From contig CANPWZ010000004.1 of NCBI GenBank assembly GCA_947585425.1, positions 1-64,000 of the forward strand: 64,000 nt of DNA, written 5' to 3'. A program made the position numbers and the translations under genes. Source of the DNA: an uncultured Oscillospiraceae bacterium. GTDB lineage: Bacteria; Bacillota; Clostridia; Oscillospirales; Oscillospiraceae. The notes beneath the pieces are model-generated. The model did no database searches and had not been told where the DNA came from. It saw only the letters and a list, made by a program, of their open reading frames with translations. Shown piece after piece: positions 30,542-54,044 of this stretch; the stretch's first letter is position 1; each line of letters begins with the position of its first letter.

Positions 30542-31420
30542 TCAGAACTTCGGATGGACGTCGTCGCCCCGGGCCCGCTCCAGATTGACCTGCTTCTTGC
30601 GGCCGGCGGCGATCTCCAGCATGGCGGCGAGCTTCTCCCGGTCCCCGGCCTCGATGGCCAGACGGTACTCCCGCATGCGGTTTTCCAGCTCGGTCACCAT
30701 TTTGGTCAGCGCCGGGGCGTTGAGGGTGAAGAGCTGGGTCCACATGGGCACGTCCAGGGAGGCCACTCTCGTGCAGTCCCGGAAGGAGCCCCCCTCGAAG
30801 CCCTGGCAGGAGAAGAAATCGGCCCCGTCGCACACCGACACGGCGATGACGTGCATGAGCTGGCTGGTATAGGCGATGAGCTCGTCGTGGCGCTCCGGGG
30901 TGGTGCGGGTCACGTCCCCGAAGCGGCAGTAGGCCGCCATGCGGTACAGCAGGGCGATGTGCTCCTCCGTGCTGTTTTCCCCGGGGGTGATGATGAAGTG
31001 GGTGTTGCGGAAGAGGGTGGCCTCGGCGTTGTCGATGCCGGAGACCTCCTTGCCCGCCATGGGGTGGCAGCCGATGAAGTCCACCCCCTCGGGCAGGCAT
31101 CTGGCCGCCTCCGCGATGGCGGTCTTGACGCCGCACACGTCCATGACCAGGGAGCCGGGCTTGAATCTGTCCCGGTTGTCCCGCAGGAAGGAGATGATCC
31201 CCGCCGGGTCCTGGCACAGGATGACCACGTCGGACTGCGGCAGCTCCTCCTCCGGGTGGAAGGTGAGCCGATCCGCCGCGCGGCGGTCCTTTGCCTTTTC
31301 ATAGGTCCGCTGGGAGCGGACGCCGCCCACCACCTCGCAGCCGTCGAACCCCTGCAGGGCCATGGCCAGCGAGCCGCCGATGAGCCCCAGGCCCACCACC
31401 AGGATGCGTTTTACCTCCAT
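30542..31420 (-). CDS. tyrA: Prephenate dehydrogenase
   Basis: 292-residue enzyme making 4-hydroxyphenylpyruvate, the tyrosine precursor. Rossmann motif VGLGLIGGSLA (residues 9-19), then conserved DVCGVKTAI, FIGCHPMAGKE with the catalytic His, and QLMHVIAVS. It ends at the catalytic domains and lacks a C-terminal ACT domain, so it has no built-in allosteric tyrosine sensor. It lies 15 bp downstream of aroF in one transcript, which begins with a tyrosine-rich leader peptide. Confidence 0.95.
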   Translation of the reverse strand: MEVKRILVVGLGLIGGSLAMALQGFDGCEVVGGVRSQRTYEKAKDRRAADRLTFHPEEELPQSDVVILCQDPAGIISFLRDNRDRFKPGSLVMDVCGVKTAIAEAARCLPEGVDFIGCHPMAGKEVSGIDNAEATLFRNTHFIITPGENSTEEHIALLYRMAAYCRFGDVTRTTPERHDELIAYTSQLMHVIAVSVCDGADFFSCQGFEGGSFRDCTRVASLDVPMWTQLFTLNAPALTKMVTELENRMREYRLAIEAGDREKLAAMLEIAAGRKKQVNLERARGDDVHPKF

Positions 31421-31435: not shown

Positions 31436-32452
31436 TCAGAGTTCCCGGCCCACCGCCGGGGCCAGGACCCGGAGCTTGTCCATCAAAGCCGTGAACTGGT
31501 CCGGGGTGATGGACTGGGCCCCGTCGCACAGGGCGTGGGCGGGGTCGTTGTGGACCTCGATGAGCAGGCCGTCCGCTCCGGCGGCCACGGCGGCCAGGGC
31601 CATCCGCTCCACCATCCACGCCTTGCCGCAGGCGTGGGAGGGGTCCACCACCACCGGCAGGTGGCTCTGCCGCTTCACCGCCAGCACGGCGGACAGGTCC
31701 AGGGTGTTGCGGGTGTAGGTCTCGAAGGTGCGGATGCCCCGCTCGCAGAGGATCACGTTGGGGTTGCCCTCCGACATGATGTACTCCGCGCTCATGAGCC
31801 ACTCCTCGATGGTGTTGGAGAGGCCCCGCTTCAGCAGCACCGGCTTGTGGTAGCGCCCCACCTTTTTCAGCAGGTCGAAGTTCTGCATGTTCCGGGCGCC
31901 GATCTGGATCACATCCACCGTGTCCTCGAACATGGGGAGTTGGTCGGGGCTCATCAGTTCGGTGACCATGGGCAGGCCGGTGGCGGCCCGGGCCTTCTCC
32001 AGCAGGTGGATGCCGTCCACCCCCATGCCCTGGAAGGCGTAGGGAGAGGTGCGGGGCTTGTAGGCGCCCCCCCGGAGGGCGCGGGCCCCGGCGGATTTGA
32101 CCGCCTCGGCCACATCGGTGATCTGCTCCTCGCTCTCCACCGAGCATGGCCCCGCGATGACGGCCAGCTTTTTGCCCCCGATGCAAACCCCGCCGCCGAT
32201 GTCCACCACCGAGTCGTCGGGATGGTACTTGCGGTTGGCCTTTTTATAGGGCTCGGACACCCGCATGACCCGCTCCACGCCGGGGAGCTGGGCCAGCAGC
32301 TCCTGGTTGAGGTTCGCCGCGTTTCCCTCGGCCCCCAGGATGGTGGTCTCGGACCCCTTGGAGATCATGACCTTCACGCCGCCGGCCTCCATGGCCCGGA
32401 CGGCGTCCTCCAGTTGTTTGTGGGTGAACCCCTGCTTCATAATGACGACCAT
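31436..32452 (-). CDS. aroF: 3-deoxy-7-phosphoheptulonate (DAHP) synthase
   Basis: First enzyme of the shikimate pathway. 338 residues with an N-terminal ferredoxin/ACT-like regulatory domain (residues 1-70: MVVIMKQGFTHKQLEDAV, VMISKGSETTILGAEG) and the type I-beta catalytic barrel (VIAGPCSVES, LRGGAYKPRTSPYAFQG, IQIGARNMQNF, VDPSHACG). The layout matches the Thermotoga maritima enzyme, in which that N-terminal domain binds tyrosine as feedback inhibitor. Combined with the tyrosine leader peptide upstream, both activity and expression appear set by tyrosine. ATG 32452 follows AAAGGAG. Confidence 0.95.
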   Translation of the reverse strand: MVVIMKQGFTHKQLEDAVRAMEAGGVKVMISKGSETTILGAEGNAANLNQELLAQLPGVERVMRVSEPYKKANRKYHPDDSVVDIGGGVCIGGKKLAVIAGPCSVESEEQITDVAEAVKSAGARALRGGAYKPRTSPYAFQGMGVDGIHLLEKARAATGLPMVTELMSPDQLPMFEDTVDVIQIGARNMQNFDLLKKVGRYHKPVLLKRGLSNTIEEWLMSAEYIMSEGNPNVILCERGIRTFETYTRNTLDLSAVLAVKRQSHLPVVVDPSHACGKAWMVERMALAAVAAGADGLLIEVHNDPAHALCDGAQSITPDQFTALMDKLRVLAPAVGREL

Positions 32453-32492
32453 AACAGACGCGCTCCTTTGTGCAGATGTGATTCGGACATAC

Positions 32493-32521
32493 AAAAAGCG
32501 GCCACCCGTGAGGGTGACCGC
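32493..32521 (-). terminator. Attenuator terminator in the aroF-tyrA leader
   Basis: On the minus strand GCGGTCACCC / GGGTGGCCGC with loop TCAC, then TTTTT, 41 bp before the aroF ATG. The 5' arm is repeated exactly at 32534-32543, directly after the leader-peptide stop, so the 3' arm has two possible partners. Confidence 0.85.
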
Positions 32522-32543
32522 GCCGCAGGCCGCGGGTGACCGC

Positions 32544-32612
32544 TCAGGGGCACGACAAAACGCCGCTATCATAATAGCGGTAATAGCCGTACCCGTAGAG
32601 CCGGTTCGCCAT
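32544..32612 (-). CDS. Tyrosine-rich leader peptide of aroF-tyrA
   Basis: 22-codon ORF beginning MANRLYGYGYYRYYDSG: six tyrosine codons in ten positions (residues 6-14 hold Y6, Y8, Y10, Y11, Y13, Y14). It has a strong ribosome-binding site GGAAGGAGG 8 bp upstream, follows a sigma-A promoter by 24 nt, and is followed by a terminator hairpin. This is the standard architecture of transcription attenuation by ribosome stalling, here sensing charged tRNA-Tyr. A hairpin CCGCTAT/ATAGCGG lies within the tyrosine codons. Too short for automated gene calls. Confidence 0.85.
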   Translation of the reverse strand: MANRLYGYGYYRYYDSGVLSCP

Positions 32613-32642
32613 GCCCGTGGCCTCCTTCCTGTCGTTGACGGT

Positions 32643-32671
32643 ACTTTAGCACTTTTAGTGGTAAAAGTCAA
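32643..32671 (-). promoter_or_regulatory. Sigma-A promoter of the aroF-tyrA attenuator transcript
   Basis: TTGACT (32666-32671), 17-bp spacer, TAAAGT (32643-32648); start near 32636. A perfect inverted repeat, ACTTTTA-CCAC-TAAAAGT (32651-32668), fills the spacer and may be a repressor site. Confidence 0.75.
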
Positions 32672-32687
32672 GAGGAAATTTGCGGGG

Positions 32688-33527
32688 TCACTTCCGCATG
32701 AAGATGACCCCCAGGGTGTTGGGCCCGCAGTGGCAGGAGATGGTGCAGCCGGCGAAGGCCTCCGAGACCTCCCGGAAGCCGGCGGCGCGCACCTTTTCCA
32801 TCATGGCGGGGACGATGGCGGGGTCGTCGCACCGGGAGTGGACCACAAAGGCCCGGCTCAGATCCGCGTCCCCGTGGGAGAGTAGGTCGGCCACATAGTC
32901 GTCCAGAGCCTTTTCAAAGGTGCCCCGGTACTTTTTGCCCACGCCCATCCTGCCGTTTGCCAGGACGATGGAGGGCTTCAGCCGCAGCAGATTGGCCCCC
33001 ATGGCCACCAGAGAGGGCACCCGGCCCCCCTTCACCAGATAGTCCAGCTTATCCACCACGAAGGTGGTGTCCACCTTGTCCACCAGGCTTTCGATGCGCT
33101 TTACGATGTCCGGGGCGCTCATGCCCCGCTCCGCGGCCTGGGCGGCCTCCAGCACCAGCAGCCCCTGTCCTGCGGTGAGGTTCCGGGAGTCCGCCACGTA
33201 CACGTTGGGGAAGTCCTCGGCGGCCACCAGGGCGTTCTGGTAGCAGCAGGAGAACTCCGCCCCGATGGTGATGTGGATCACCGCGTCGTATTTGGGGGAG
33301 AGTTCGGCAAACAGCTTCTGGTAGTCGTCGATGTTCACGGCGGCGGTGGAGGGGAGCTGGCCGCCGCCCTCCACATGGCGGAAGATGTCCTCGGGGCCGG
33401 CGTCTACACCGTCCCGATAGGTATTGCCGCCGAAGGAGACGTACAGCGGGACGACGCCGATGTCGTACCGGGCCAGAAGCTCGGCGGGCAGATCGCAGGT
33501 GCTGGTGGCGGTGATCTTGATGGACAT
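32688..33527 (-). CDS. DegV family fatty-acid-binding protein
   Basis: 279-residue DegV-fold protein. N-terminal STCDLPAELLARYDI with the usual strand-loop, PSTAAVNIDDY with the fatty-acid-contacting Ser/Thr, and GRVPSLVAMGANLLRLKPSIVLANG in the C-terminal domain. Characterised members bind fatty acids and hand them to the FakA kinase. Monocistronic: own promoter upstream, and the aroF leader promoter begins downstream. Paralogues are usually several per Firmicute genome, so the exact partner cannot be told. Confidence 0.9.
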   Translation of the reverse strand: MSIKITATSTCDLPAELLARYDIGVVPLYVSFGGNTYRDGVDAGPEDIFRHVEGGGQLPSTAAVNIDDYQKLFAELSPKYDAVIHITIGAEFSCCYQNALVAAEDFPNVYVADSRNLTAGQGLLVLEAAQAAERGMSAPDIVKRIESLVDKVDTTFVVDKLDYLVKGGRVPSLVAMGANLLRLKPSIVLANGRMGVGKKYRGTFEKALDDYVADLLSHGDADLSRAFVVHSRCDDPAIVPAMMEKVRAAGFREVSEAFAGCTISCHCGPNTLGVIFMRK

Positions 33528-51149: not shown

Positions 51150-53777
51150 TCATCCCATAGCGGCAAGCTGCTCCTGGATCTTGGCGATGAGGGTCTTCAG
51201 CTTTTCCGCCCGGTCTTTCTCGGCGGCCACCACCTCGGCGGGGGCCTTGTTCAGGAAGCCGGGGTTGGAGAGCTTTCCCTCCAGGCCCTTCAGCTCGCCC
51301 TGCTTTTTGCCCAGGTCCTTATTCAGCCGGGCCTTCTCCTTCTCGATGTCCACCAGCTCGGCCAGAGGCATATACACCTTGGCGTCGTGGGTCACGTCGG
51401 CCACCATGCCGGCGGTGGAGGCGGGCTCGTTTTCCCCGATTTCGATGGAGGAGGCGTAGGCCAGACGGGTCAGGAACCCTTTTCCGGCGGCGAACACGCT
51501 GGCCTTGGGGGTGACGATGGTGACGGCGGCCTTTTTGGAGGGGGGCACGTTCATCTCGGCCCGGCGGGCCCGGATGGCTTTGATGGCGTCCATGACCGAC
51601 TCCATGGACTCCTCGGCCTCTCGGAAGTTCAGGGCCTCGTCGTACTCCGGCCACCGCTGGAGCATGAGGAAGTCCCCCTCGTGGGGCAGGGCCTGCCAGA
51701 TCTCCTCGGTGATGAAGGGCATGAAGGGGTGCAGCAGCTTCAGCGTCTCGGTGAGGACGTACACCAGCACCCGGTGGGCGTTCTCCTTGGCGTGTTCGTC
51801 CTCCCCCTGAAGGCGGGCCTTGGTCAGCTCGATATACCAGTCGCAGAAGTCGCTCCAGATGAAGTCGTACATCTTGGCGGAGGCCACCCCCAGCTCGTAG
51901 GCCTCCATGTTCTCCGTCACCTCGCGGATGACCTCGCCCAGGCGGCACAGGATCCACTTGTCCTCCTGCTCCAGCGTCTCCGGCAGGCCCAGCTTGTCGG
52001 TGGTCAGGTTCATCATCACGAACCGGCTGGCGTTCCAGATCTTGTTGGCGAAGTTCCGCATGGCCTCGCACTTCTCCACGAAGAAGCGGGTGTCGTTGCC
52101 GGGGGCGTTGCCGGTGATCAGGTTGAAGCGCAGGGCGTCGGCGCCGTACCTGTCGGCCATCTCCAGGGGGTCGATGCCGTTGCCCAGGGACTTGGACATC
52201 TTGCGGCCCTTGTCGTCCCGCACCAGGCCGTGGATCAGCACCGTGTGGAAGGGGGGCTGCCCCGTGTGCTCGCAGGCGGAGAAGATCATCCGGGCCACCC
52301 AGAAGAAGATGATGTCGTACCCGGTGACCAGCACGTCGGTGGGGTAGAAGTAGCGCAGGTCCTCGGTCTCGTCCGGCCAGCCCAGGGTGGAGAAGGGCCA
52401 CAGGGCGGAGGAGAACCAGGTGTCCAGCACGTCCGGGTCCCGCTGGATGTGTTTGGAGCCGCACTTCTCACAGCAGGTCGCGTCCTGGCGGCTGACGGTC
52501 ATGTGGCCGCAGTCCGCGCAGTACCACACCGGGATCTGGTGGCCCCACCAGAGCTGCCGGGAGATGCACCAGTCGTGGACGTTCTCCATCCAGTTGGTGT
52601 AGGTCTTGGCGAACCGCTCGGGGACGAATTTGACCTCCCCGTCGTTGACCACCCGCAGGGCCTCTTTCGCCAGAGGCTCCATCTTCACGAACCACTGGGC
52701 GGAGATGATGGGCTCCACGTCCTTGTGGCAGCGGTAGCAGGTGCCCACGTTGTGGGAGTAGGGCTCCACCTTGACGAGATACCCCTGTTCCTCCAGGTCC
52801 TCCACGATGGCCTTCCGGGCCTCGTACCGATCCATGCCGGAGTACTTGCCGTAGCCGGGGACCACCACGCCGTTGTCGTCCAGCACCCGGATGGTCTCCA
52901 GGTGGTGGCGGAGGCCCACCTCAAAGTCGTTGGGGTCGTGGGCGGGGGTCATCTTCACGCAGCCGGTGCCGAAGTCCAGCTCCACATACTCGTCGGCCAC
53001 GATGGGCATCTCCCGGCCCACCAGGGGGAGGGTGCAGGTCTTGCCCACGATGTCCTTGTACCGCTCGTCGGCGGGGTTGACGGCCACGCCGGTGTCGCCC
53101 AGCATGGTCTCGGGCCGGGTGGTGGCCACCACCAGCTCGCCCGAGCCGTCGGTGAGGGGATAGCGGATGTGCCACAGATGGCCCGGCTTGTCCACGTACT
53201 CCACCTCGGCGTCAGAAAGGGCGGTGACGCAGTGGGGGCACCAGTTGACGATCCGGCTGCCCTTGTAGATCAGCCCCTTCTCGTAGAGGGACACGAACAC
53301 CTCCCGCACCGCCTTGGAGCAGCCCTCGTCCATGGTGAACCGGGAGCGATCCCAGTCGGCGGAGACGCCCAGCTTCTTCTGCTGGGCCACGATGCGGTCG
53401 CCAAACTTGTTCTTCCACTCCCACACCCGCTCCAGGAACTTCTCCCGGCCCAGGTCATGGCGGGTCTTGCCCTCGTTGACCCTCAGGTCCTCCTCCACCT
53501 TGATCTGGGTGGCGATGCCGGCGTGGTCGGTGCCGGGGAGGTAGAGGGCGGCATAGCCCTCCATCCGCTTGAAGCGGGTCAGGATGTCCTGGAGGGTGTC
53601 GTCCATGGCGTGGCCGATGTGGAGCTGGCCGGTGACGTTAGGGGGCGGCATGACGATGGTGAAGGGCTTTTTGTCCGGGTCCCGGTGGCCCCTAAAGCAG
53701 CCGTTCTTCTCCCACATCTCGTAGATCTGAGGCTCCACCTCCCGGGGATCGTACACTTTGGGCAGTTCTTTGCGCAT
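51150..53777 (-). CDS. valS: Valyl-tRNA synthetase
   Basis: 875-residue class I synthetase with HIGH as [17 protein letters not shown] in [10 protein letters not shown], an editing domain with [14 protein letters not shown] and [17 protein letters not shown], two Cys4-type zinc sites (CYRC, CADCGH...CEKCGS) and a C-terminal coiled coil ([21 protein letters not shown]). Start ATG 53777 behind AGGAGT. Controlled by a T-box leader with its own promoter. Confidence 0.97.
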
Positions 53778-53803
53778 GGAAAAATCTACTCCTTTCGGGG
53801 CGT

Positions 53804-54044
53804 AAAAAATCCGCCCCAAGTCTTGGACTCAGGGCGAATCGAACAATCCGCGGTACCACCTGAATTCCCCCCCGGAGAGGGGCCCTTCATTGCCTCTGTA
53901 ACGGGAGGGCCCGCCGCTCTCTACTTTCAGTTCAAGAGCGGGGCTCCGGGACGACTTCGCCGGGTCTCGCCGCGGCCTCGCACCGAACCGGCCGCTCTCT
54001 GAGACGAAACTTGCGGGTACTGCTTCCCTTCCAAGCCTTTTACG
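53804..54044 (-). promoter_or_regulatory. T-box leader of valS
   Basis: Leader of about 268 nt from the start near 54044. The T-box core GGTGGTACCGCGG is at 53848-53861, preceded by a long stem-loop (Stem I, with AGAGCGG/CCGCTCT and a GGTGCGAG distal element) and followed by an 11-bp terminator stem (53812-53822 with 53826-53836) and TTTTTT at 53804-53809. Uncharged tRNA-Val would favour the antiterminator; the Val specificity follows from the gene, the specifier codon was not fixed by me. Confidence 0.92.

Follow-up and report, generated by a model that had tools for sequence, protein, structure and literature searches.

Attenuators that rely on a translated leader are familiar from Escherichia coli, where the trpL, pheL and his leaders combine a leader peptide with 1:2, 2:3 and 3:4 pairings of the transcript; in known attenuators, the choice between folds is made during transcription. 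The T-box riboswitch, common in Firmicutes, senses tRNA charging by binding the tRNA directly without translation. The closest known systems to the locus described here, aroR of Corynebacterium glutamicum and uORFC-13-1 of Acholeplasma, are both of the Phe type. The original study of the C. glutamicum aroR-aroF attenuator is said to be that of Neshat et al. from 2014. The AroR leader carries Phe-Tyr-Phe and is reported to respond to Phe, not to Tyr (PMC11802643, PMC4046766), and uORFC-13-1 is a predicted upstream ORF with a terminator, present exclusively upstream of aroF and containing Phe codons (PMC8632094). The latter source relates that an attenuation-like control of E. coli aroF, whose 5' UTR is different, was hypothesized in 1980 (PMC8632094), and E. 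coli aroF is described as repressed by TyrR/TrpR. His leader peptides of Firmicutes are placed at histidine genes in a few lineages (PMC2965389, PMC9413887). Neither a tyrosine-specific leader-peptide attenuator nor an aroF leader-peptide attenuator in Clostridia is described among the open-access literature matches listed.

The locus considered here lies in a 64,000-nucleotide stretch of DNA (the window) from an uncultured Oscillospiraceae bacterium with a 2.0 Mb assembly in 58 contigs. We propose, from sequence and comparison, that its aroF-tyrA operon is probably controlled by a ribosome-mediated transcription attenuator sensing charged tRNA-Tyr, a reading to which we assign a probability of about 85%. 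With C. glutamicum aroR it shares a leader with aromatic codons and, as proposed here, attenuation in front of a DAHP synthase gene; unlike this actinobacterial Phe-Tyr-Phe leader, it has a run of six Tyr codons, no Phe codon, and tyrA as its second gene. An upstream ORF and a terminator before aroF are likewise features of uORFC-13-1, which is set apart by its description: Acholeplasma and environmental sequences with Phe codons and no Tyr run are reported, whereas the window's leader lacks Phe. Leader-peptide attenuation in Firmicutes would be common to it and the His leaders, although theirs stand at histidine genes. The E. coli trpL, pheL and his leaders have the leader peptide, the 1:2 and 3:4 pairings and, as proposed here, the 2:3 pairing in common with it, but concern other amino acids and belong to Proteobacteria. 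As far as we have seen, the locus is a Tyr-type variant of a known mechanism and part of a wider, apparently undescribed Clostridia family with a predicted function.

Elements in front of aroF and tyrA

Reading along the minus strand, a promoter, an AGGAGG sequence, a 22-codon Tyr-rich ORF and a terminator precede aroF, which is followed by tyrA:

32643..32671, minus strand: promoter TTGACT-17-TAAAGT with extended -10 (TG), from a consensus scan and shuffles
32621..32626, minus strand: Shine-Dalgarno sequence AGGAGG of the leader ORF, 8 nt before the ATG, from the sequence
32544..32612, minus strand: leader peptide ORF MANRLYGYGYYRYYDSGVLSCP, 22 codons, six Tyr, from the ORF scan and relatives
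32571..32597, minus strand: run of Tyr codons (codons 6-14), the proposed stalling site, from the ORF scan and conserved columns
32548..32594, minus strand: leader hairpin (1:2), outer stem 32594-32586 / 32556-32548, from folding, covariation and the same-peptide null
32563..32580, minus strand: inner stem of the leader hairpin, CCGCTAT/ATAGCGG, 32580-32574 / 32569-32563, from folding
32510..32545, minus strand: proposed antiterminator (2:3), from the stop codon through the terminator's 5' arm, from folding and relatives
32493..32521, minus strand: intrinsic terminator (3:4) with U-tract, from a scan and folding
31436..32452, minus strand: aroF, DAHP synthase with an N-terminal ferredoxin-like domain, from NCBIfam and Pfam
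30542..31420, minus strand: tyrA, prephenate dehydrogenase, from Pfam and NCBIfam

An earlier analysis of the letters (the sequence-only reading) had named a Tyr-sensing attenuator here, and its promoter, leader ORF with AGGAGG, two copies of the terminator's 5'-arm repeat (GCGGTCACCC) and gene order were all recovered. TTGACT-17-TAAAGT is the sole promoter-like site in 32300-32800, where shuffles predict 0.1. The six Tyr residues, placed by that reading between residues 6 and 14, occupy positions 6, 8, 10, 11, 13 and 14, and the peptide contains neither Phe nor Trp. When short ORFs of 10-45 codons were counted from each start codon on both strands of the window (n=1663), the leader was the only one with at least 5 Tyr in 12 codons; the runner-up within these 64 kb had 4 Tyr in 12 codons and no Shine-Dalgarno sequence. 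The terminator was found as proposed, with a stem (32521-32498) of 10 pairs, eight of them GC, from which TTTTT runs to 32493; its U-run is separated from the aroF ATG at 32452 by 40 nt, not by the 41 originally given. Three terminator-like sites were detected in 32300-32800 against 0.5 expected, one of them the CCGCTAT/ATAGCGG hairpin (32580-32563). The domain matches agree with the gene names: aroF scores above the cut-off of the NCBIfam 3-deoxy-7-phosphoheptulonate synthase model and has Pfam DAHP_snth_FXD at residues 1-67, and tyrA matches Pfam PDH_N and PDH_C, with the NCBIfam prephenate dehydrogenase models matching below their cut-offs. By sequence and consensus scan, the window has a short ORF with a ribosome-binding site downstream of a promoter. 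A codon run for an amino acid that the operon makes (six Tyr; tyrA), a terminator between this ORF and the first gene, and a 1:2 hairpin in the coding region are further features by which attenuators are recognized.

No Pfam or NCBIfam model matches the window's leader peptide; neither the T-box family RF00230 nor any other Rfam family was found at the leader (32400-32720; gathering threshold or E-value 10). An Rfam scan of 20 whole relative loci returned one cobalamin riboswitch and one tRNA and left the leaders without a family match, and the leaders of the class sample described below gave no Rfam match either. Elements of this kind may therefore easily escape annotation. Elsewhere in the window, a T-box leader (RF00230, 123.9 bits) occupies positions 53827-54042 of the minus strand upstream of ORF 51150-53819, which is presumably valine-tRNA-synthetase-like.

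Conservation among aroF relatives

We collected aroF relatives from two sources, 200 family genomes (a match in 160; 30 loci kept) and the contigs of named genomes (best 80 of 581 confirmed), which together yielded 94 distinct upstream regions. The closest named match among the best 80 of 581 stems from an uncultured Oscillospiraceae bacterium (L032; aroF 96% identical). For 67 of these distinct upstream regions, the window included, aroF is at least 66% identical. A Tyr-rich leader followed by a terminator is present in 55 of these 67, which supports the leader-peptide attenuation that had been read from the window. These 55 leaders contain 3 to 8 Tyr residues (mean 5.3 per 24.6 residues), and in their alignment A1, Tyr codons occupy columns 37, 58 and 64 in 50, 48 and 42 of 55 sequences. 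tyrA follows aroF in 53 of the 55 leader-bearing loci; of the other two, L034 has no downstream sequence and L082 shows no tyrA within 3000 bases. A covariance model of the leader, partly built from the same genomes, matched 32 places in 31 of the 200 family genomes under strict filters and with 21 candidates scored per genome, so that other sites may be missed; of the 32 places, 31 are found at most about 250 bases upstream of aroF, and the remaining one is at a contig edge.

The sequence-only reading had named, as evidence against itself, relatives that keep the hairpin without the Tyr codons. A Tyr-rich leader and a terminator occur together in 55 of 67 upstream regions, an outcome that favours the attenuator, and among the 12 exceptions L022 alone goes the other way: it has a degenerate leader (-400 to -20 before aroF) with few Tyr codons, separated from the terminator by additional sequence, the promoter, an SGFFACP end and the terminator being retained. 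Five relatives (L007, L008, L010, L011 and L066) have a promoter close before aroF-tyrA with neither leader nor terminator between, and thus lack the attenuator altogether. No leader was found at L083, nor at L063, L069 and L074, in whose fetched flank no tyrA was detected either. In L065 (-395 to -190 before aroF) the usual leader peptide is encoded, but its frame has no stop codon before the terminator, which is unexpected under the proposed mechanism; this ORF exceeds 45 codons and was missed by the leader finder. In the upstream region shared by L031 and L062, the leader is normal except that its Tyr run is interrupted by an in-frame TAG, which may be an error, as the assembly has N there.

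Pairings of the leader RNA

In the window, the long leader hairpin (1:2) begins in the first Tyr codons and extends to the stop region; its predicted energy is -25.4 kcal/mol. The CCGCTAT/ATAGCGG hairpin pointed out earlier among the Tyr codons is part of this competing leader hairpin. Native 1:2 partners pair better than swapped ones (N=55, p 1e-7), and the hairpin is paired in 75.2% of the cells of alignment A1, a share that drops to 32.5-41.1% when the strands are slid (helix 2 pairs in 53% of cells). With the structure for the covariation analysis drawn from one of the aligned sequences, both-side changes occur at 16 of 21 leader-hairpin pairs (shuffled mean 12.2), and the covariation score is reached by none of 500 shuffles; further pair types do not exceed shuffles (57/500). 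RNAalifold gave only 3 pairs on the 55-sequence A1, because codon-aligned rows misplace stems. Measured against recodings that leave the peptide the same, 44 of 55 leader hairpins fall into the strongest 5%, and none of 60 such recodings of the window's leader folds as well. L022 and L031 were omitted from the partner-swap and same-peptide tests.

The C-terminal residues of the peptide are conserved beyond the Tyr run, as one would expect if a nascent peptide with the SG..(S/A)CP end stalled the ribosome on a ligand. In five relatives (L026, L027, L043, L051 and L064), however, the ORF stops before the CP residues and the letters GCCC are kept in the RNA, which points to a constraint on the RNA; we consider such peptide arrest very improbable and continue with the attenuator that counts Tyr codons.

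The alternative pairings suggested by the sequence-only reading could be computed as competing folds, with -19.8 kcal/mol for the terminator and -15.5 kcal/mol for the antiterminator hairpin (32545-32510). The window's own antiterminator does not exceed shuffled spacers in strength (z 0.03, with 52% of shuffles as strong; 47.5% in a second run). Once complete, the terminator gives the window's minimum-energy fold even in the stalled state; the switch would therefore have to be kinetic and decided during transcription. Across 72 loci, a dinucleotide-shuffle test of antiterminator strength (without L022, L031, L003, L009 and L099) gave a mean z of -0.79 with 13 loci at or below 5%; for the 55 close relatives the mean z was -1.04, and 14 of these as well as 6 of 19 distant relatives reached the 5% level.

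Folding the first set with a ribosome on the Tyr codons predicts that the terminator's 5' arm pairs just after the leader stop codon, and in the window's clade hairpins are predicted that lead from the post-stop stretch into this arm. Pairing of the arm at 0 to +11 after the stop has a probability of 0.34 in close relatives (0.11 shuffled) and peaks at 0.44 in distant ones (0.06 shuffled); the arm is engaged better than in the median shuffle in 47 of 55 close relatives. The stretch from 0 to +11 is what a ribosome at the stop codon would cover. When 13 loci were folded from the stop codon, the arm's upstream pairing amounted to 0.39-0.79 with the strand free and to 0.01-0.55 with 12 nt masked, a decrease in 13 of 13 loci (0.75 to 0.49 in the window) that serves as an illustration and not as a test, since masking cuts some pairing in any sequence.

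Swapping the partners of the 2:3 pairing gave a positive result in distant relatives (N=20, p 8e-5) and in a second set (N=51, p 8e-3), with a negative 2:4 control (p 0.68). In the 55 close relatives, native 2:3 pairs were not better than swapped ones (p 0.3), in a comparison with little power owing to the similar GC-rich arms. The second set overlaps the first (L129, L134, L140, L142 and L152 carry the peptides of L092, L086, L097, L091 and L111), and 51 of its 52 leaders have a terminator after them. Its arm pairing is not concentrated after the stop codon: the values there are 0.13-0.17 against 0.08, the stretch from -18 to -13 reaches 0.19 against 0.08, and sites far downstream reach 0.15-0.17. 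Taken as folding predictions, these mixed results support, but do not prove, an antiterminator whose strand is the stretch right after the leader stop codon.

Sequence and comparison supply the parts, the conserved Tyr codons, a covarying leader hairpin, the terminators and leader codons that fit the operon; from them we infer stalling, a ribosome footprint, a kinetic preference for the antiterminator and a response to tyrosine. A ribosome would translate the 22-codon leader behind RNA polymerase. With ample Tyr-tRNA, it would reach the stop codon and cover about the first dozen nucleotides after it; with this post-stop strand covered, the antiterminator (32545-32510) would be blocked, the terminator (32521-32493) would fold, and transcription would stop before aroF. 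With scarce Tyr-tRNA, the ribosome would stall in the Tyr codons and open the long leader hairpin, the free post-stop strand could pair with the terminator's 5' arm, and polymerase would enter aroF-tyrA. On a leader without a ribosome, the leader hairpin could extend into the post-stop strand and the terminator would form.

Promoter element and leader codons across the Clostridia

The promoter overlaps an imperfect palindrome, ACTTTTA-N4-TAAAAGT, a possible operator, and the promoter element CTTGACTTT...AAAAGTGCTAAAGT is strongly conserved across the upstream regions, part of this conservation being promoter consensus. In 62 of the 94 upstream regions, the best promoter site agrees with the consensus at 14 or more of 20 positions, a few distant loci perhaps by chance. 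In one study, a HisR motif, cacTTTA-N6-TAAAgtg, is ascribed to TrpR-family YerC regulators, and HisR paralogs are reported to adjoin tyrosine genes (PMC9413887). The aroF promoter element resembles this HisR (YerC) operator by sequence, a hypothesis that we offer as a lead. One could accordingly suppose that the terminator and the ORF are unregulated and that control is exerted solely by a repressor at the promoter, as the element ACTTT-N8-AAAGTG (window 32650-32671, minus strand) is kept close before aroF in the five leaderless relatives and resembles the HisR motif. The Tyr leader in 55 of 67 upstream regions, the same-peptide null and the reverse-strand and shuffle controls speak against this supposition, to which we give hardly any credence; besides, a repressor and the proposed attenuator can coexist.

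Attempts to define the operator further gave mixed results. A reading of the conserved promoter as a 26-bp palindrome was rejected: its pattern (at most 3 mismatches) matched the source genome at aroF only, but the backward control was commoner (2 and 2 against 1 and 1). At no more than 2 mismatches, the palindrome pattern had 43 matches in the 200 family genomes, partly at other genes, the listed control counts being zero. A looser pattern fits aroF with 0 mismatches and two places in the source genome with 1 mismatch, one of the two some 75 bp ahead of a yerC match; at 2 mismatches, matches genome-wide equal the control (7 vs 7). A site that precedes a YerC-like gene (L163) pointed to the TrpR family; its spacing is the one published for HisR, and the conserved GTG doubles as an extended -10. 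About 75 bp before one of the two yerC-like genes of the source genome lies the palindrome ACTTTCGCATGCGAAAGT (L214, G000:C12:47375-47396), where autoregulation by the same type of site is possible. In L155, L161 and L177, the aroF-type promoter pattern lies ~200-310 bp before an ORF that we take to be AMP-binding CoA-ligase-like, with a long leader resembling a T-box by eye.

To the sequence-only reading, T-boxes were among the main modes of control of aromatic genes in Firmicutes. A class sample comprised 60 aroF regions, each from a different genome among the 86 of 118 that had a match. In it, leader peptides are commoner before aroF than T-boxes, which replace them in 2 of 60: an ORF with a Shine-Dalgarno sequence and at least 5 aromatic residues in 12 was present in 26 of 60 regions, whereas the reverse strand gave 0 of 60 and shuffles 1.0%. 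As many as 7 aromatic residues in 12 were attained by 22 of 60 regions and by none in either control. An alternative leader rule is passed by 25 of 60 regions; L260, L266 and L267 have aromatic ORFs that fail the Shine-Dalgarno rule. The other two sets gave 52 of 94 regions against 2 of 94 on the reverse strand, and 27 of 40 against 3 of 40.

As judged from sequence, the codons of these leaders vary with the operon: aroF-tyrA goes with Tyr, aroF-aroB mostly with Phe, and combined operons with a mixture. Tyr makes up 0.73 of the aromatic residues in aroF-tyrA leaders (45 distinct), 0.27 in leaders of aroF-aroB operons without tyrA (24; mean 4.7 Phe, 2.0 Tyr and 0.7 Trp) and 0.45 in those of combined operons (15). 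The differences between operon types have p values of 1e-9, 6e-6 and 2e-3 in statistics that ignore relatedness. Operons were classed by the genes detected in fetched flanks of 1500 to 3000 bases, and an aroB farther away would be missed; L022, L031, L034, L063, L069, L074, L082 and L083 were omitted from the tyrA class, and L116, which has no downstream sequence, was put into the aroB class. In some genomes, the leader is of the Tyr type at one aroF paralog and of the Phe/Trp/Tyr type at the second (G089: L005, L129; G078: L019, L119). At the second aroF of the source genome (L112, G000:C10:20571-21581), which is followed by aroB and aroA, an aromatic leader was not found; the corresponding paralog has a Phe/Trp/Tyr-rich leader in many relatives. 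The promoter region of L112 contains, by eye, an inverted repeat ATTTTGCCG...CGGCAAAAT.

An attenuator of this kind might instead sense aromatic amino acids generally, or slow translation, rather than tyrosine specifically. Distant relatives have mixed Phe/Tyr leaders, several close ones have Phe or Trp beside Tyr, and AroR of C. glutamicum is reported to answer Phe and not Tyr in spite of its Phe-Tyr-Phe sequence (PMC11802643). We nevertheless regard this as unlikely for the window, whose leader contains six Tyr but neither Phe nor Trp, given that the Tyr share varies by operon type, and retain the sensing of charged tRNA-Tyr as the preferred reading.

More tentatively, and with less than even confidence, one may picture the DAHP synthase operons of Clostridia as possessing one widespread leader-attenuator family in which duplication of aroF was followed by re-tuning of the sensing codons, to Tyr in aroF-tyrA and to Phe with Trp and Tyr in aroF-aroB-aroA, undivided operons having a mixture, with an Oscillospiraceae Tyr branch joined to a TrpR-family (HisR/YerC-like) promoter repressor; this branch would recreate the repressor-plus-attenuator logic of E. 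coli trp with unrelated parts. If the proposed attenuation holds true, many gut bacteria would use a count of aromatic codons to adjust the first step of aromatic synthesis. The paralogous operons would then represent a natural re-coding of the sensor, and the rule that leader codons follow the operon's product could be compared across genomes.
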